Source: Acidobacteriota bacterium
Lineage (GTDB): Bacteria > Acidobacteriota > Terriglobia > Terriglobales > SCQP01
Direction of reading: 5' to 3'
Assembly (NCBI GenBank): GCA_021789895.1
Contig: JAJYIU010000028.1
Coordinates: forward strand, 1-42,945
Length of the DNA stretch: 42,945 nt
A program made the position numbers and the translations under genes. This document shows positions 8,501 to 38,863 of the stretch, in pieces. The stretch's first letter is position 1, and each line of letters starts with the position of its first letter. The notes beneath the pieces were generated by a model. It did no database searches and was not told where the DNA came from. It saw only the letters and a program-made list of their open reading frames with translations.

Positions 8501-10486
8501 TTACGCCGGCAGCGGCGGCTTTCGACTCGGCAGCATGCGGGCCGAATTGAGCAGGAAGGCGAACTCCGAGGCGACGTGTATGAACGCCGCCAGCAGCGGA
8601 TTGAGCATGCCCATCGCCGCCATCGCCAGGCCGGCGGCATCCACCAGTAGCGTGCCGTAAAAATTTTGCGTGATGATGCGCCGGCAGTCGCGGGCGATTT
8701 GCAGCGTCTCGACGAACTTGCCCAGGTCGCTGCCGATCAGCACCACGTCGGCGCTTTCGCGCGCCACGTCCGTTCCCTCACCCATCGCCACGCCGACGCT
8801 GGCGGCGCTCAGCGCCGGCGCGTCGTTGAGGCCGTCGCCCAGCATGGCCACGGTCTTGCCATCGCGCTTCTGTTCCGCCACAAACCGGGCCTTTTGCTGG
8901 GGCAGCAGCTCGGCGTGCACCTCGCGGATGCCCAACCCCCGCGCCAGTTCGCTCGCCGCCCGCGCATTGTCCCCGGTGAGCAGCACCAATTGGATCCGCA
9001 TCGCTTCCATCGAGCGTACTGCCGGCCCGGCGCTGGGCCGCTGCTGGTCTTGGATTGCGATCGCGCCGTACAGGCGCGCATCGCGCGCCACCCAGACGGT
9101 GGTCTCGGATGCCGTTCCCGCTTCCGCCGGAACTCGGATTCCGTGCTCCTCGAGCCATTGCCGGTTCCCGGCGAGAATCTGCCCGCCCGGCTCGGCTTTC
9201 GTCTCGGCCAGCACCCCTCGTCCGACGTAATATTCAAACCGCGCCGGCAGCTCGATTTTGAGCTGCTCCGCTTCGGCCCGCTGTAATATCGCCCGGCCCA
9301 GCGGATGCTCCGACCTGCTTTCGGCGCTGGCCGCGGCGGCGAGCAGTTGCCGCTCGCCGATGCCCGCCTCCGGCCGCAACCCCGTCACCCGCGGCTGGCC
9401 ATAGGTCAGCGTGCCGGTTTTATCGAGAAAGACTGTATCCAGTTGCCAGAGCGTTTCCAGATAGATGCCGCCCTTGACGATCGAGCCGCGCCGCGCCGCG
9501 CGCCCGATCGCGCCCAGAATCGCCAGCGGCGTCCCGGCGGCGATGCCGCACGCGCCGGCCACGATGACGACCGAAATTGTGGATTGCAGGTTGTGCGTGA
9601 TGAGAAACGTCAGCCCCGCCGCCCCCAGCGCAAAATAGACCAGGTAACCCGAAAGCCGGTCGGCGGTCTTCTGAATCGGCGCGCGCGCGCGCTCCGCCCG
9701 CTCCACCGCTTCGACGATGCGGCCGAATGTAGTCTCCGGCCCCAGCCGTTCGGTGCGCACTTCCAGCGTGCCCGCCTGGTTGAAGCTGCCGGCATAAACT
9801 TCGATGCCCGCGGATTTTTCCGCCGGCATCGGCTCGCCGGTGATCGCCGCCTGCTCCACCCAGGAATGCCCCGCCAGCACCTGCCCGTCCACCGGAATGC
9901 GCGAGCCTGGCCGGATCAGCACCACTTCGCCCGGCTGGAGCGCGCTCGTCGGCACTTCGGTTATGGTGCCGCCGCGCATCACGCTCGCGGTTTGCGGCAA
10001 AAATTCCAGCAGTTGGCGTATCGCCTGCCGGCCGCGCGTAACCGTCTGGCCTTCCAGAATCTCCGCCGCCAGCACGAAGGCGGTAATCAGCAGCGCGGTC
10101 ACGAATTCGCCGATCGCCAGCGCCGCCGCCAGCGCAATGGTCATGGAAAGCTCCATCGTCATGCGGCGCTCGAAGAGGTTGACGGCGGCCTGCTTGTAAA
10201 TGGGATAGCCGCCCGCCAGCGCCGCTCCCAACCCGATCAGGCTGACCCGCGCCCACGGTTCCCAAAGTTTGTAGCCCACGGCCGCTGCGGCGGCCAGCAC
10301 CAGCACAATCCGGAGCGCCTCGCCGCGTGGAATCACGGGCCGTGTCCGGGGCTCAGCCCGGGGTTGGTTTACCCCGGGGCGGCTGCCGGTGATGTCTGGC
10401 GGAGGCGGCGGGGCAGACTCGGATGGCGAAGGCGCGGCCGATGCGTCGTCCCGATTCCCTGCCGGCGATGGATGCGTTGCAAACAT
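8501..10486 (-). CDS. heavy-metal P1B-type ATPase-like pump with atypical GAC motif
   Basis: 661 residues. P-type ATPase hallmarks: TGEPMPAEKSAG (actuator loop), Asp355 of DKTGTLT (phosphorylation), and MLGDGLNDAPALSAASVGVAMGEGTDVA (hinge). The order of predicted membrane segments, with two pairs before the actuator and a pair after it plus C-terminal helices, fits the P1B heavy-metal class. There is no N-terminal HMA metal-binding domain; instead there is a Pro/Ser-rich tail of about 65 residues. Where P1B pumps carry CPC or XPC before a TP pair, this protein reads GAC (Cys313 aligns with the second Cys), so the conserved proline is absent. The transported ion is therefore unclear. ATG 10486 has only a weak AGG nearby; the exact start is uncertain. 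Confidence 0.9.
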   Translation of the reverse strand: MFATHPSPAGNRDDASAAPSPSESAPPPPPDITGSRPGVNQPRAEPRTRPVIPRGEALRIVLVLAAAAAVGYKLWEPWARVSLIGLGAALAGGYPIYKQAAVNLFERRMTMELSMTIALAAALAIGEFVTALLITAFVLAAEILEGQTVTRGRQAIRQLLEFLPQTASVMRGGTITEVPTSALQPGEVVLIRPGSRIPVDGQVLAGHSWVEQAAITGEPMPAEKSAGIEVYAGSFNQAGTLEVRTERLGPETTFGRIVEAVERAERARAPIQKTADRLSGYLVYFALGAAGLTFLITHNLQSTISVVIVAGACGIAAGTPLAILGAIGRAARRGSIVKGGIYLETLWQLDTVFLDKTGTLTYGQPRVTGLRPEAGIGERQLLAAAASAESRSEHPLGRAILQRAEAEQLKIELPARFEYYVGRGVLAETKAEPGGQILAGNRQWLEEHGIRVPAEAGTASETTVWVARDARLYGAIAIQDQQRPSAGPAVRSMEAMRIQLVLLTGDNARAASELARGLGIREVHAELLPQQKARFVAEQKRDGKTVAMLGDGLNDAPALSAASVGVAMGEGTDVARESADVVLIGSDLGKFVETLQIARDCRRIITQNFYGTLLVDAAGLAMAAMGMLNPLLAAFIHVASEFAFLLNSARMLPSRKPPLPA

Positions 10487-32799: not shown

Positions 32800-34122
32800 A
32801 TGCACAAAACGATTGGCGGCATTTTCTTTCGAGTCTTGGTCTCGCCGGCGATTTTCGCCGCCGGCCTTGCCTGGGCGCAGCAGCCCGCGGCGCCGGCGCG
32901 GCCGGCCGTCGCGACCGCCCGGGTTTCCACCGCGCCGCCGCGGGTCTTATCGCTCGCAGACCTGGTGCGCGCGGCGCTGGCGCACAATCCGGAAATCGCC
33001 GCTTATGCCAGCCGCGCGGCGGCGCTGCGCGCCCGCATACGCCCGGCCGAGTCCCTGCCCGATCCAACCGTCAGCGCCGGCTGGATGGGCAAGCCCCTGC
33101 CCTTCGTCCTGAACCGCGCGGCCATGACCAGCTATCGCGGCGTCTCGGCGATGGAAACCTTCCCCTTTCCGGGCAAGCTGAAATTGCGCGGCCGGATGGC
33201 GGAGCGCAAAAGCCGCGCCGCCTGGTGGGATTACCAGGCCGTGCGGCGGCGGGTGGTGGCGCAACTCAAAGCCGCCTACTTTCAATACGCCTATTGCGAG
33301 CAGGCGCTGGCGATCGTCGGGAACAATCGCGTTCTGCTGGAAAAATTGACCAAGATCGCCGAGGCCCGCTATCAGGCCGGCAAAGGCCTGCAGCAGGATG
33401 TGTTGAAAGGACAGCTCGAGTTATCCCAGTTGCTGGAGCAGATCGCCATTCTCCAGGAAGAACGCCGCACCGCCGCGGCGCGCATCAACACCCTGCTCGA
33501 CCGCTCGCCGCAAGCGCCGCTGGCGCCGCCCGCGCCCTTGGCGCAAACCCCGCTCGCCTACACCCTCGCCCGGCTTTACCGCCTGGCCGGCGCCGACGAT
33601 CCCGGCCTGCAGCGCGACCAGCGCCTGATCGAGCGCGATCAGGATGCCCTGGCGCTGGCGCATAAATCTTACGACCCCGATTTCAGCGTCAGCACCATGT
33701 TCCAGCGGATGCCGGGCGGGCCCAACATGTACGGCGCCTTTGTCGGCGTGAGCATTCCGATTTTCTATAAATCGAAACAGCGGCGGCAGGTCGCCGCCGC
33801 CGCCCGCTCGCTCGATAGCATGCGCAGCCTGCGCGCCAACCGGCAAACTACCGTCAATTACCTGGTGAAGCAACAATTCCTGGCCGCCGAACAGGCTTCG
33901 CGGCTCGCCGTGCTTTATTCCCAGGCCATCGTCCCGCAATCGTCGCAAACGCTGGCATCGTCCGAGATGGCCTATCAGGCCGGGAAACTCGATTTCCTCA
34001 GCCTGCTCGACAATTTCGTCAACCTGCTCGGCTACCAGGTGAATTACTACCGCCAGATCTCCGATTACCAGATCGCCCTGGCGCGGCTCGAGCCCCTGGT
34101 TGGGGTCGAACTCGCGAAATAA
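32800..34122 (+). CDS. cusC: CusC/TolC-family outer-membrane efflux channel
   Basis: 440 residues. A signal peptide (VLVSPAIFAAGLAWAQ) precedes two OEP repeats, seen as long helices with heptads: LADLVRAALAHNPEIAAYASRAAALRAR and LLEKLTKIAEARYQAGKGLQQDVLKGQLELSQLLEQI in the first, and FLAAEQASRLAVLYSQAIVPQSSQTLASSEMAYQAGKLDFLSLLDN in the second (quoted here in parts of the full stretch). The channel exports substrate from the RND pump through the outer membrane. AGGAG lies 8 bases before ATG 32800. It is followed 11 bases later by the adaptor gene, giving the order C, B, A. Confidence 0.92.
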   Translation: MHKTIGGIFFRVLVSPAIFAAGLAWAQQPAAPARPAVATARVSTAPPRVLSLADLVRAALAHNPEIAAYASRAAALRARIRPAESLPDPTVSAGWMGKPLPFVLNRAAMTSYRGVSAMETFPFPGKLKLRGRMAERKSRAAWWDYQAVRRRVVAQLKAAYFQYAYCEQALAIVGNNRVLLEKLTKIAEARYQAGKGLQQDVLKGQLELSQLLEQIAILQEERRTAAARINTLLDRSPQAPLAPPAPLAQTPLAYTLARLYRLAGADDPGLQRDQRLIERDQDALALAHKSYDPDFSVSTMFQRMPGGPNMYGAFVGVSIPIFYKSKQRRQVAAAARSLDSMRSLRANRQTTVNYLVKQQFLAAEQASRLAVLYSQAIVPQSSQTLASSEMAYQAGKLDFLSLLDNFVNLLGYQVNYYRQISDYQIALARLEPLVGVELAK

Positions 34123-34133
34123 AGGAGGCTTGC

Positions 34134-35684
34134 ATGAAAAACTATCGCCTCGCATTTTTAGCGTTATTGGCCGTCAATCTCGTTTTGCTGGCGGCTGCGG
34201 GCGCGTGGTGGTGGCAGCGGCGCGCCGCCCGCACGCCGGCGGCGGTCCCCGCCGGCGCCGGTCCGAGCGCGGGCGCGGGCTTCGGCCAGTCCGCCGCGGC
34301 GCCGCCCGCGGCGCCGGCGGCGCTCGCGCCGCTGCAACTTTCGCCGCAGCGGCTGCAGAGCATCGGCGTGACCTTCGGCCGCGTCCAGCGCCGGGTACTG
34401 CACGACGACCTGCGCTTTGCCGGCAACGTGGCCGTGGACGAACAGGAGCAGGCTTACGTCCAGACGCGTTTTTCCGGCTGGATTCAGCAGGTATTCGCCA
34501 ACGCCAATTACCAGTATGTGAAGCAGGGCCAGCCGCTGTTCACTATTTATAGCCAGGACCTGGTCACCACCGAACGCGAATACCTGCTGGCGAAACAGAA
34601 CCAGCAGCTTCTGGCCAAAAGCCCGGTGCCGGGCGTCGCCGCCGGCGCGAAATCGCTGGTCCAAGCGACGCTGGCGCGGCTGCGGCAATGGAACCTGCCG
34701 CGGCGCGAAATCTCCCGGCTGGAGCGTACCGGCAAGGCCGAGCAATACCTCACCGTGGATTCCCCCGCTTCCGGCTTCATCACCGAGCGCAACGCCCTGC
34801 CCAACATGTATGTCGTGCCGGCGACGCGGCTCTATACCGTGGCGAGTTTCTCGCCCATCTGGGTGTACGCCGAAGTGTTCCAGAACGATCTGGGGCGCGT
34901 CCGTCCCGGCGACCCGGCCACGCTTACGGTCGATTCCTATCCCAGCCGCACCTTTCACGGCCGGGTGGATTTCATTTATCCCACCGTGAATATGGCCACC
35001 CGCACCGCCCGCGTCCGGCTGGTGTTTTCCAATCCCGGCCTGCTGTTGCGCCCCGGGATGTTCGTCAACGTGGACCTGAAAATTCCGATGGGGCGGCAGC
35101 TCGTCGTTCCCGCCGCAGCGGTCTTTCAGGCCGGCACCCAACAGATCGCATTCCTCGACCGCGGCCATGGCTACCTGGAGCCGCGCACCATCGTCGCCGG
35201 GCCGCAGGTCGGCAACAACACGATCGTACTCAAAGGACTCCAGCCCGGCGAGCGGATCGTCACTTCGGCCAATTTCCTGATCGATTCCGAAAGCCAGTTG
35301 CAGGCGGCCATCGGCTCCTTCCTGCCGCCGCCCGCCCCCGCCGGCGGCTCCGCCGCCGCGGCGCAATACCAGCTCTCCTTCAGCTCCACTCCCACGCCGC
35401 CGCGCCCGGGCGCCAATGCCTTTCAGGTGAAACTCACCAATGCCCAAGGCCAACCGGTGGCCGGCGCCGTGATTCAGGTGACCTTCTCGCTGCCGGCCAT
35501 GCCGGCGATGGGCATGCCGGGACAGACCCTCCATTTCAATCTGGAGGATAAAGGCGGCGGGAATTATGCCGGTTCCGGCAATCTGCCCGCCGGCGACTGG
35601 CAGGTGGCGATCGTGGCGCAGCGCGCCGGGCGGGTGATTGCCAGCCGGCAATTGAGCGTCAGCGTCCCAGGAGGGATGGAATGA
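34134..35684 (+). CDS. cusB: CusB-family periplasmic adaptor with C-terminal FixH/YtkA-like domain
   Basis: 516 residues. A membrane anchor or signal (LAFLALLAVNLVLLAAAGAWWW) is followed by an Ala/Pro linker and the membrane-fusion core: RFSGWIQQVFANANYQYVKQGQPLFTIYSQDLVTTEREYLLA (lipoyl half, shown in part), a helical hairpin, and VASFSPIWVYAEVFQNDLGRVRPGD (beta barrel), close to copper/silver CusB. Residues about 420-516 form an extra Ig-like domain (NAFQVKLTNAQGQPVAGAVIQV, MPAMGMPG, GGNYAGSGNLPAGDWQV) of the FixH/YtkA type, often found in copper and oxidase-assembly proteins; its Met-rich loop could bind Cu(I). GGAGG lies 5 bases before ATG 34134. Its stop overlaps the cusA start (ATGA). 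Confidence 0.93.
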   Translation: MKNYRLAFLALLAVNLVLLAAAGAWWWQRRAARTPAAVPAGAGPSAGAGFGQSAAAPPAAPAALAPLQLSPQRLQSIGVTFGRVQRRVLHDDLRFAGNVAVDEQEQAYVQTRFSGWIQQVFANANYQYVKQGQPLFTIYSQDLVTTEREYLLAKQNQQLLAKSPVPGVAAGAKSLVQATLARLRQWNLPRREISRLERTGKAEQYLTVDSPASGFITERNALPNMYVVPATRLYTVASFSPIWVYAEVFQNDLGRVRPGDPATLTVDSYPSRTFHGRVDFIYPTVNMATRTARVRLVFSNPGLLLRPGMFVNVDLKIPMGRQLVVPAAAVFQAGTQQIAFLDRGHGYLEPRTIVAGPQVGNNTIVLKGLQPGERIVTSANFLIDSESQLQAAIGSFLPPPAPAGGSAAAAQYQLSFSSTPTPPRPGANAFQVKLTNAQGQPVAGAVIQVTFSLPAMPAMGMPGQTLHFNLEDKGGGNYAGSGNLPAGDWQVAIVAQRAGRVIASRQLSVSVPGGME

Positions 35685-38600
35685 TCGCGCGTTGGATTGA
35701 ATGGTGCAGCCGCAACCGCTTCCTGGTTTTCACCGGCGTCTTCCTGCTGGTGCTGGCGGGCATCTGGGCGCTGCGGAACATTCCGCTCGACGCCCTGCCC
35801 GACATCTCCGACGTACAGGTCATCATCCACACCAGTTGGCCCGGCGAGCCGCCCAACATCATCGAAGACCAGGTCACCTATCCCATCGTGACCTCGCTGC
35901 TCACCGCCCCCAAGGTGAAAGCAGTGCGGGCGCAAACCATGTTCGGCGACTCCTATGTTTACGTCGTATTTCAATCCGGCACGGATATCTACTGGGCGCG
36001 CTCGCGCGTGCTCGAGTATCTGCAGCAGATCAAGGGCCGCATCCCCGCGGGCGTGAATCCCGCCATCGGCCCCGACGCCACCGGCGCCGGCTGGGTGTAT
36101 GAATATGTGCTGGCCGATCACTCGCACCAGTACAGCCTGGCCGATCTCCGCACCCTGCAGGACTGGTATATCCGCTACTGGCTGGAATCCGTTCCGGGCG
36201 TCGCCGAAGTCGCGACCATCGGCGGTTTCGTCCGCCAGTTCCAGGTCAATCTCGATCCCAACAAGCTGCTCGCCTACAACATTCCGCTCGCGACCGTGAT
36301 CCGGCGCGTGCGCGCCAGCACCAACGAAGTCGGCGGCCGGCTGCTGGAATTCGGCGGCGCCGAATACATGGTGCGCGGGCTGGGCTACTTCCATTCGCTC
36401 GACGATCTGCGCAACGTTCCGGTCGGCGTGCACGACGGCACGCCGATCCTGGTCGGGGATCTCGGCAACGTTTCCTACGGGCCGGATATCCGCCGCGGCG
36501 TCGCCGACTGGAACGGGAAGGGCGAGACGGTGGGCGGCATCGTGGTCATGCGCTATGGCCAGAATGCGCTCCATGTCATCCATGGCATCCAGGCCAAAAT
36601 CGCCTCCATCCAGGCGTCGCTGCCGCCGGGCGTGGAAATCGTTCCCGCCTACGACCGCTCGGGCCTGATCCAGGATTCCATACACACGCTGCAACGCGAT
36701 CTGCTCGAGGAATCGCTGATCGTCAGCCTGGTGATCATCATCTTCCTCTTCCATTTCCGTTCGGCGCTGATCCCGATTCTGACCTTGCCCATCGCCGTGA
36801 TTGCTTCCTTCCTGCCGATGTACTACTTCCACGTCACCGCCAACATCATGTCGCTCGGCGGCATTGCGCTGGCGATCGGGGTGCTGGTGGACGCCGCCAT
36901 TGTCATGGTCGAAAACGGCTACCGCTGCCTCTCCGAGGCGCAGGCCGCGGCCGCGGCGTCCGCGCCGCTGCCGCCGCGCCCCATCCGCCCCCGCCAGCGG
37001 CAGCGGATTCTGCTCGATGCCGCCAAGCAGGTGGGCGGCCCGATCTTCTTTTCGCTGGTGATCATCGTCGTCTCGTTCCTGCCCGTGTTTTTGCTGCAGG
37101 CGCAGGAAGGCCGCCTCTTTCGCCCGCTCGCCTGGACCAAGACGCTGGCCATCGGCTTTTCCTCGCTGCTCTCGATCACCCTGATCCCGATTCTGATGAT
37201 GCTGTTCATTCGCGGCCGCCTGAAACCGGAATCCGCCAATCCCGTGTCCCGTTTCACGCAATGGCTTTACCTGCCGGTCTTGCGCTTTTGCCTGCGCCAT
37301 CGGCTGCTCACGCTGCTGGCCGGGGTGGCCCTGCTGGCCGCGACCCTGCCGCTGGCCACGCGCATCGGCAGCCAGTTCATGCCGCCGTTTTACGAAGGCT
37401 CCGCCCTTTACATGCCGACTTCCTATCCCGGCATCTCCATCACCCAGGCTTCGAATTTAATGCAGGAGCAGGACCGCATCCTGCGCACCTTCCCCGAGGT
37501 CAAAAGCGTTTTCGGGACGGTGGGCCGTTCGGATTCGGCCACCGACAACGCCGATCTTTCGATGTTCGACACCACCGTCATCCTCCAGCCTCGCCGGCAG
37601 TGGCCGCGCGGCGAGACCTACGCCAAGCTGATCCACGCCATGAACGCGAAGCTGCAGTTTCCGGGGCTCACCAACGACTGGACCGCGCCCATCCAGAACC
37701 GCCTCGATATGGAGCTTACCGGCATCAAAACCCCGGTGGGAATGAAAATCCAGGCCCCGAACCTGGCCGACATCCAGCAGGTGGGCGCCCAGGTGCAGCA
37801 CCTGCTATCGGGGCTCTCCGGCGTGCGCTCGATCTTCGCCGAGCGCGTGCTGCAGGGCTTTTATGTGAACATCGCCGTCCACCGCGCCGAGGCCGCGCGT
37901 TATGGGCTCACCGTAGCCGATGTGCAGCGGGCGGTGACCAGCGGCATCGGCGGGCAAGACATCGCCGTCAACATCGAGGGGCGCGAGCGCTATCCGATCA
38001 ACGTCCGCTACAACCGCGATTTCCGCGACGACATCCCGGCGCTCGAACGCGTCCTGATTCCCACTCCGGCCGGCGCGCAGATACCGATCTCCGAAGTCGC
38101 CAGCATCACCTTCTCCCGCGGCCCGGCGGTGATCCGCGATGAAGGCGCCCAGCTCACCGGCTACATCTACTTCGATTTGAGCACCAGCGACTACGGCGGC
38201 TTCGTGCGCAAAGCCAGCGCGCGGCTGCGGCGGAAACTGCAATTGCCGCCCGGCGCGGCCTATCACTGGTCGGGCGAATATAAATTCGAGGTGCGGGCGC
38301 AGAAGCGGCTGGAGCTGATCATGCCCATCGTTTTCTTCGTCATCTTCGTGCTGCTCTATATGACCTTTAACTCCGCCGCGGAGGCCACCATCCTGATTTT
38401 GCCCACCGCCTTTGCCCTCACCGGAGGGCTGCTGCTGCAATGGTGGCTGGGCTACAATTTCAGCGTCGCCGTCTGGGTGGGTTATATCGCCCTCTTCGGC
38501 ATCGCCGTCGAAACCGGCGTCGTGATGGTCGTCTATCTGCATGAAGCGCTCGACCGGCGGCTCAGCCAGGGGACTCCGGTACAGCACGAGGAGATCGAAG

Positions 38601-38863
38601 CGGCCACGATCGAAGGCGCCGTCCAGCGCCTGCGGCCGAAGCTGATGACGGTGTTCGCGGTGCTGTTCAGCCTCGGTCCCATTCTCTGGGAAACCGGGGT
38701 CGGCTCGGACGTGATGAAGCCGATCGCCACTCCCATGGTGGGCGGCATGGTGACTTCGACGATCGGCGTGCTGCTGCTGGTGCCGGTGCTCTTCGCCATG
38801 CTGAAAGAGCGGCAACTGCGGCGCGGCAGCCTGCAGCCGCCGGAGGAGGAGGCCGATCTATGA
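35681..38863 (+). CDS. cusA: CusA/CzcA-family heavy-metal RND efflux pump
   Basis: 1060 residues, full length. The proton-driven inner-membrane pump exports metal ions with CusB and CusC. N-terminal helix FLVFTGVFLLVLAGIWALRNIPLDALPDISDVQVII is classic for heavy-metal RND pumps. TM4 reads AIGVLVDAAIVMVENGY, the CusA (copper/silver) version of the motif, with Asp and Glu for the proton relay. Periplasmic FMPPFYEGSALYMPTSYPGIS and MELTGIKTPVGMKI follow, and the C-terminal half ends with VGYIALFGIAVETGVVMVVYL, also CusA-like. Ion choice (Cu/Ag versus Co/Zn/Cd) is inferred from these motifs. GGAGGG precedes ATG 35681, which overlaps the cusB stop; the last four bases overlap the start of the NosL-like gene. 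Confidence 0.95.
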   Translation: MIARWIEWCSRNRFLVFTGVFLLVLAGIWALRNIPLDALPDISDVQVIIHTSWPGEPPNIIEDQVTYPIVTSLLTAPKVKAVRAQTMFGDSYVYVVFQSGTDIYWARSRVLEYLQQIKGRIPAGVNPAIGPDATGAGWVYEYVLADHSHQYSLADLRTLQDWYIRYWLESVPGVAEVATIGGFVRQFQVNLDPNKLLAYNIPLATVIRRVRASTNEVGGRLLEFGGAEYMVRGLGYFHSLDDLRNVPVGVHDGTPILVGDLGNVSYGPDIRRGVADWNGKGETVGGIVVMRYGQNALHVIHGIQAKIASIQASLPPGVEIVPAYDRSGLIQDSIHTLQRDLLEESLIVSLVIIIFLFHFRSALIPILTLPIAVIASFLPMYYFHVTANIMSLGGIALAIGVLVDAAIVMVENGYRCLSEAQAAAAASAPLPPRPIRPRQRQRILLDAAKQVGGPIFFSLVIIVVSFLPVFLLQAQEGRLFRPLAWTKTLAIGFSSLLSITLIPILMMLFIRGRLKPESANPVSRFTQWLYLPVLRFCLRHRLLTLLAGVALLAATLPLATRIGSQFMPPFYEGSALYMPTSYPGISITQASNLMQEQDRILRTFPEVKSVFGTVGRSDSATDNADLSMFDTTVILQPRRQWPRGETYAKLIHAMNAKLQFPGLTNDWTAPIQNRLDMELTGIKTPVGMKIQAPNLADIQQVGAQVQHLLSGLSGVRSIFAERVLQGFYVNIAVHRAEAARYGLTVADVQRAVTSGIGGQDIAVNIEGRERYPINVRYNRDFRDDIPALERVLIPTPAGAQIPISEVASITFSRGPAVIRDEGAQLTGYIYFDLSTSDYGGFVRKASARLRRKLQLPPGAAYHWSGEYKFEVRAQKRLELIMPIVFFVIFVLLYMTFNSAAEATILILPTAFALTGGLLLQWWLGYNFSVAVWVGYIALFGIAVETGVVMVVYLHEALDRRLSQGTPVQHEEIEAATIEGAVQRLRPKLMTVFAVLFSLGPILWETGVGSDVMKPIATPMVGGMVTSTIGVLLLVPVLFAMLKERQLRRGSLQPPEEEADL

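Follow-up and report, generated by a model that had tools for sequence, protein, structure and literature searches.

The ATPase gene and its product

The window analysed here, a 42,945-nt stretch of an Acidobacteriota contig (JAJYIU010000028.1, assembly GCA_021789895.1), carries at 8501–10486, on the minus strand, a single gene for a P1B-class ATPase of 661 aa. Its ORF consists of 661 codons and a stop, with no internal stops. A GH92 gene converges on its lower side, and an M13 peptidase gene lies upstream on the same strand. The product returned 533.7 bits against TIGR01525 ('heavy metal translocating P-type ATPase', cut-off 346), which places it among the P1B pumps, and it also scored above the cut-off of TIGR01512 (cadmium family).

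A Pfam scan of the whole protein revealed the E1-E2_ATPase and Hydrolase domains alone and no HMA domain (PF00403), in agreement with the original prediction, which had also regarded the remaining P-type signatures as intact. All of these were found, namely the actuator-domain motif TGE (residues 216–218; 9833–9841, minus strand), the phosphorylation site DKTGT (355–359; 9410–9424, minus strand), HP (394–395), TGD (504–506) and the P-domain hinge motif GDGLND (550–555; 8822–8839, minus strand). The N-terminal ~50 residues (10337–10486, minus strand) form a Pro-rich, disordered tail with neither an HMA domain nor a His-rich run, and the AF2 model has pLDDT values below 50 here, at residues 1–26 and 29–43.

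Structure prediction was run on 40 rows, comprising the window protein and 39 of 73 usable relatives, and gave a model with a mean pLDDT of 86.5 and a pTM of 0.82. The nearest solved structure is that of CopA (7r0g_A: Z 34.8, rmsd 3.9, 595 residues aligned), and the model has the P1B fold and helix layout.

The TM6 motif and the predicted ion site

TM6 of the window protein reads A310-G-A-C313-G-I-A-A-G-T-P320, with G311-A312-C313 (9548–9556, minus strand) standing in place of CPC, SPC or TPC. It had been claimed of this motif, AGACGIAAGTP, that only the second Cys is kept, and profile alignment to solved pumps bears this out by matching C313 with the second CPC Cys. Alignment and the AF2 model together predict that the helix break, at residues 310–312, is retained without a proline. 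No CPx or xPC tripeptide is present in TM6; GAC is found instead, both in the window protein and throughout the 21 full-length members of its clade, referred to below as the GAC clade. The loss of the CPx proline, described in the original prediction as nearly invariant in P1B pumps, therefore stands for the window ATPase but is not unique to its group, since the sister group ('ACSC') has Ser or Ala at this position in 8/8 members.

Two other explanations of the motif had been named beforehand, a canonical CPx elsewhere in the membrane region and loss of the motif in a pseudogene, and neither agrees with what we found. The only cysteines of the window ATPase are residues 313 and 601 and the protein contains no CP or PC dipeptide, which excludes a canonical CPx at any other place in it. 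The orthologue in a genome of the same genus, G001, has flanking genes on both sides in common with the window, and comparison with it by NG86 over 635 codons gave a dN of 0.21 and a dS of 0.68 (dN/dS about 0.31), which shows the gene to be under purifying selection and makes a decaying pseudogene unlikely. The intact frame, this selection and the occurrence of GAC in all full-length members (21, including the window copy) led us to reject a pseudogene or an artefact.

The original prediction had also proposed that residues co-occurring with the motif be sought in the last helices, and three were found. Asp616 in TM7 (8639–8641, minus strand) occupies the position of ZntA Lys693 and of the Asn of the P1B-1 YN motif. 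His637 in TM8 (8576–8578, minus strand) is at the position of ZntA Asp714, and Glu641 (8564–8566, minus strand) lies one helix turn past His637 at a position that is Asp in the ACSC, 'TSPAE' and P1B-5 groups. In the profile alignment to ZntA (4umv), C313, D616 and H637 correspond to the second CPC Cys, K693 and D714, respectively. According to published work (PMC6305203), C392, C394 and D714 make up the zinc site of ZntA, K693 being the partner in a salt bridge.

The quartet C313/D616/H637/E641 is invariant in 21/21 full-length clade members and absent from every other group sampled, in which position 616 is N, K, I, V, H or S and position 641 is S, T, V, C, A, D or, in the CtpG-like proteins, E. 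Three of the four positions align with known site positions of solved pumps, suggesting that the side chains of C313, D616, H637 and E641 would meet as one metal site.

Distribution and phylogeny of the GAC clade

Genomes were searched in full with a profile (A1) built from nine members, and membership was called by score gap: members returned 889–1073 bits, while the best motif-less sequence among the loci read returned 578. Members were detected in 12/249 genomes of the window's order, 4/396 in a spread of its phylum (own genome counted), 2/385 in the class of G409 (G409 counted; the locus titled Hyphomicrobiales, L017, comes from there) and 2/398 in the phylum of G409 (G409 counted). Among plasmid records, 5/72,556 carry one (Novosphingobium, Rhodanobacter, Xanthobacter, Methylorubrum and Bosea), and these plasmid-borne pumps are annotated merely as 'cation-translocating' or 'heavy metal translocating' P-type ATPase.

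Collapsing the 43 matches by their last 300 residues left 22 distinct loci, of which 21 encode full-length members; the truncated Methylorubrum copy, which ends before TM8, was excluded from residue counts and from four trees, among them the quick and the careful tree described below. The group is rare, scattered, partly plasmid-borne and present in more than one phylum, and our search of the open-access literature found no description of a GAC-type pump. The truncated copy, on p1META1 of Methylorubrum extorquens AM1 (L013, 6770–10898), is cut off before TM7-8 and lies near an IS21-like ISMex13 element.

A tree of 73 rows, with KdpB as the root, supported the 71 ingroup rows, GAC included, at 100/100, placing the clade among the P1B pumps. 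The 18 GAC rows formed one clade (100/100) with the ACSC group as its sister (96/91). Separate clades were recovered for P1B-2 (100/96), P1B-5 (99/97), P1B-4 (91/99) and the CtpG-like proteins (100/100), while the P1B-1 rows and four unlabelled rows made up a set of their own (100/100). The P1B-5 rows were Nia of Sinorhizobium meliloti and four relatives, and P1B-1 and the other groups were represented by the best-scoring samples of the matches. The tree omits near-copies (L140, L155 and L157), a single ACADD row, the long-branch second ATPase of L040 and five further rows from other groups; the GAC rows thinned for it were restored for the final residue counts.

The CtpG-like rows fall with P1B-2, P1B-4 and CPG (86/99), apart from GAC, so the TM8 His/Glu pair that they share with the GAC pumps seems to have arisen twice. 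A clade uniting GAC, ACSC, TSPAE and P1B-5, all of which have an acid at position 641, reached an SH-aLRT of 91 in a quick tree but was not recovered in the careful 73-row tree.

The suggestion that the motif may define a subgroup, for which a phylogeny had been proposed as the check, has thus gained ground from the clade at 100/100, the gap in profile scores and the matched changes in TM6, TM7 and TM8. On these sequence comparisons, the GAC clade is well supported as a P1B subgroup distinct from those with which it was compared, namely P1B-1, P1B-2, P1B-4, P1B-5 and the CtpG-like pumps.

Repressors and other neighbouring genes

A gene of the CsoR/RcnR family (PF02583) adjoins the GAC pump in 12 of the 22 loci, upstream and co-directional in ten (most just 14–45 nt from the pump) and divergent in two. 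A 53-codon ORF that we take to be spurious lies between repressor and pump in L150, and in a thirteenth locus the PF02583 gene is five genes away. Fingerprints were read from an alignment of all family members found, with 79 other loci, mostly of CPC pumps, as the control set. The repressors of GAC loci display C-H-H in 15/16 cases and C-Q-H in 1/16, with His at position 3 in 14/16; one of the 15, the first repressor of L013, is gapped in the alignment and should probably be read as C-H-C. The control repressors, in contrast, are C-H-C in 27/28 cases, the other being unreadable, and only 3/28 have His at position 3.

CsoR is reported to bind Cu(I) via Cys-His-Cys, while DmeR has an RcnR-like HCHH fingerprint and RcnR and DmeR both answer Ni(II)/Co(II) (PMC7055735); the fingerprint is also described in PMC5146963, according to which His64 is missing from the FrmR proteins. 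An HCHH fingerprint should not be read as proof of Ni/Co sensing, since the FrmR variant E64H, in which the HCHH set is present, is reported to sense Zn(II) as well as cobalt (PMC4528141, PMC5016687). When four GAC-locus repressors were scored as whole proteins with NCBIfam models, FrmR (87–95 bits) came above RcnR (66–83 bits), both below their cut-offs (133/138). The repressor of G861 (L151, 6888–7052) matches positions 28–78 of the 78 of the family only and may be truncated or frameshifted.

The genomes of the window, of G001 from the same genus, and of G222 and G409 contain no PF02583 gene, so the window copy is not regulated by a repressor of this family. Four changes suffice to account for gain and loss of the repressor on the tree of the clade, and the 12 loci therefore represent few independent events. 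An RcnR-type operator pattern, built from the description in PMC5146963, returned 0 matches in the window. A G/C tract of at least 5 nt precedes the relatives' repressors in 5/14 cases, and those of L155 (two), L154 and L011 look AT-flanked, a signal too weak to count.

A His-rich N-terminal tail (an HxH/HxxH run), which the window ATPase does not have, is present in 11/22 clade members. It accompanies a repressor in 9/12 loci vs 2/10 loci without one (Fisher p 0.03), but the tree holds at most 3–4 independent pairs, and we did not consider a link between tail and repressor established.

Other neighbours were scanned with Pfam and NCBIfam for genes chosen by eye. In Bosea-type GAC loci, the pump gene is preceded by one for a ferric-reductase-like protein and followed directly by a VIT1/CCC1 gene, the same gene families occur in G1332, and cytochrome b561 genes lie near the pump in L012 and L010. 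The Methylorubrum plasmid has a weak match to RcnA (nickel/cobalt efflux; 43.5 bits, cut-off 195) and a HupE/UreJ-family gene. On a Bradyrhizobium plasmid (L168, 1–2379), a VIT-family gene is positioned directly upstream of a Nia-like P1B-5 pump, mirroring the downstream VIT gene of the Bosea-type loci. The window itself encodes, 22 kb from the ATPase (32800–38863, plus strand), a tripartite RND operon of the metal type, consisting of an outer-membrane factor, an adaptor of the CusB/CzcB kind that contains a YtkA-like domain, and a pump of the CusA/CzcA family that scores above the family cut-off; its products could carry periplasmic metal onwards, a putative link to the ATPase.

Proposed substrate and alternatives

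Considering the composition of the site together with the RcnR-like repressor beside 12/22 members, we would give roughly even chances that the GAC-clade gene encodes a working P1B efflux ATPase that exports Ni(II)/Co(II) via a mixed S/O/N site. This reading is also backed by the acid at the position of E641 in 5/5 P1B-5 (Ni/Fe) pumps and by the His-rich N-terminal tails. The original prediction of a different ion or mechanism is plausible in this light, as site composition and repressor argue against Cu(I) and appear to point towards Ni(II)/Co(II). Repressor type is the strongest clue to the ion, and it comes from the relatives, the window's own locus giving no regulatory clue. We infer the direction of transport, the ion, the joint binding of metal by the four residues and a substrate of the window copy equal to that of its relatives.

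One thiolate (C313) with Asp616, His637 and Glu641 would replace the two-thiol CPx site, and phosphorylation at D355 by ATP would drive a divalent first-row ion of borderline character out of the cytoplasm into the periplasm, Ni(II)/Co(II) being the most probable candidate. An internal counter-ion in place of ZntA Lys693 could be provided by one of the carboxylates or by His637, in the manner of the P1B-4 histidine. Somewhat more tentatively, and at a little below even chances, we propose that the GAC clade represents a P1B subfamily not described before, its soft CPx site of two thiols having been rebuilt as Cys/Asp/His/Glu for Ni(II)/Co(II), which prefer octahedral coordination, with a TM6 kink formed without proline and a carboxylate at the place of the coupling lysine of zinc pumps.

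Export of Zn(II)/Cd(II) would have the single Cys and the TM8 His and Glu form a zinc site like that of mycobacterial CtpG, for which specificity for zinc, an APC motif in TM6 and a HEFTE motif in TM8 have been described (PMC9045314). CtpG-like plasmid proteins do carry H and E at 637/641, the sensing of both Zn(II) and cobalt by FrmR E64H would suit such a substrate, and the window protein exceeds the cut-off of the cadmium family TIGR01512. We nevertheless regard this as a serious but less likely alternative, given that the CtpG-like rows lie elsewhere in the tree and have Ile rather than Asp at 616, and that the annotated regulators in two CtpG-like loci are ArsR/SmtB proteins, unlike RcnR.

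We consider export of Fe(II) and/or Mn(II) a serious alternative of similar, lower probability. The ferric-reductase-like and VIT1/CCC1 genes that flank Bosea-type members, with the same families in G1332, and the cytochrome b561 genes near two other pumps are all suggestive of it, and the VIT gene next to a P1B-5 pump in Bradyrhizobium would fit Fe, Mn or Ni. VIT and ferric reductase genes, however, occur in just 2/22 loci vs 12/22 for the RcnR-like gene, and Mn sites do not usually include a conserved thiolate. The P1B-5 pump Nia has been linked to both Ni and Fe (PMC4932525), which is in keeping with an iron substrate.

A decayed Cu/Zn pump that has lost CPC, and metal transport with it, would account for the absence of one Cys and one Pro that all sampled P1B-1 and P1B-2 rows possess. 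We find this very improbable, as the frame and the catalytic motifs are intact, selection is purifying, and the same motif recurs in every full-length member, in at least two phyla as well as on plasmids, with a co-conserved site; the copy that has lost TM7-8 beside an IS element concerns one locus alone. Export of Ni(II)/Co(II) is the reading we prefer.

How P1B pumps discriminate between Cu(I), Zn(II), Co(II) and Ni(II) is still debated, with few site variants behind the debate. The GAC clade amounts to a natural experiment, in which the 'invariant' CPx proline and the first Cys have been dropped and three further site positions changed together, the pump being ordinary in all other respects. 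It suggests ready mutants (GAC to CPC, D616K and H637D), with the regulator predicting the ion. Motif filters and annotation pipelines that require CPx miss or misname GAC-like pumps.

Comparison with known pumps

The ACSC group (for example, L018, 8001–9713, L019–L021, L103–L106 and L170) resembles the GAC clade in the missing CPx proline and in the acid at 641, which is Asp; it differs in having two Cys in TM6 (C-S-C or C-A-C), Asn at 616 and, in 7/8 members, Gln at 637, and its TM8 reads QSxPD. No CsoR/RcnR gene was found at the ACSC loci L018–L021. The group is possibly another undescribed or under-described subgroup.

Further unusual TM6 motifs were observed among the sequences collected. 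The TSPAE group (L015, L111 and L173) has a TM6 motif without any Cys and His at 616, and its member on a Cupriavidus plasmid adjoins a CzcE-family gene. Others are CPD in Microbacterium (L088, 6828–9674), CADD in Patescibacteria (L036, 7992–9920) and a very divergent CPKP in Anaerosolibacter (L040, 4683–6872).

The GAC pump is P1B-like by profile, fold and tree, yet it carries neither a CPx nor the motifs of P1B-1, P1B-2, P1B-4, P1B-5 or CtpG-type pumps. Membership in each of these groups was rejected on their motifs, and the tree separates all of them from GAC. P1B-1 (Cu+) pumps are characterized by CPC, YN in TM7 and MxxSS in TM8 (PMC4932525), where the window ATPase has GAC, VD and HVASE. 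P1B-2 (Zn/Cd/Pb) pumps have CPC, N(x)7K in TM7 and DxG in TM8 (PMC4932525, PMC6305203), where it has GAC, Asp616 and His637. ZntA, a P1B-2 pump (4umv/4umw), shares the P-type core and fold with the window protein (VIA Z 27.8–28.2, 31–32 % identity), but it belongs to a separate clade and has CPC, Lys693, Asp714 and Thr at 641 in place of GAC, Asp, His and Glu, and the window copy has no HMA domain.

P1B-4 pumps (Co/Zn/Cd) have the motifs SPC and HEGxT, the His of which acts as a built-in counter-ion, and sCoaT is a P1B-4 pump without an HMA domain (PMC8880997). They are reminiscent of GAC pumps in the one Cys of the TM6 motif, the TM8 His at 637 and, in sCoaT, the missing HMA domain. They form their own clade and differ in SPC and HEGxT, with Glu beside the His, Thr at 641 and Ile at 616, where the window ATPase has GAC and HVASE.

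For P1B-5, we take an ORF on S. meliloti pSymA to be Nia (Sma1163) on account of its TPC motif and C-terminal hemerythrin domain (PF01814), the record having no annotation there. Nia of S. meliloti is classified as P1B-5 and has been proposed to be a Ni/Fe pump (PMC4932525). The P1B-5 rows resemble GAC in the acid at 641 (5/5), and Nia also returned no HMA match in Pfam, but the rows keep the proline in TPC (5/5), have Ser at 616 and Gln-Glu at 637–638, and form a clade that contains no GAC rows. The window ATPase also has no counterpart to the hemerythrin domain of Nia, which may not be universal in P1B-5, as two of the five rows (ORFs of 653 and 667 aa) look too short for it.

The CtpG-like plasmid proteins share with the GAC pumps a single TM6 Cys, His at 637 and Glu at 641, while they differ in the kept proline, an extra Glu at 638, Ile at 616 and ArsR neighbours. 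Compared with mycobacterial CtpG itself, by its published motifs, the window protein has GAC for APC and matches the His and the last Glu of HEFTE but not the other Glu of that motif.
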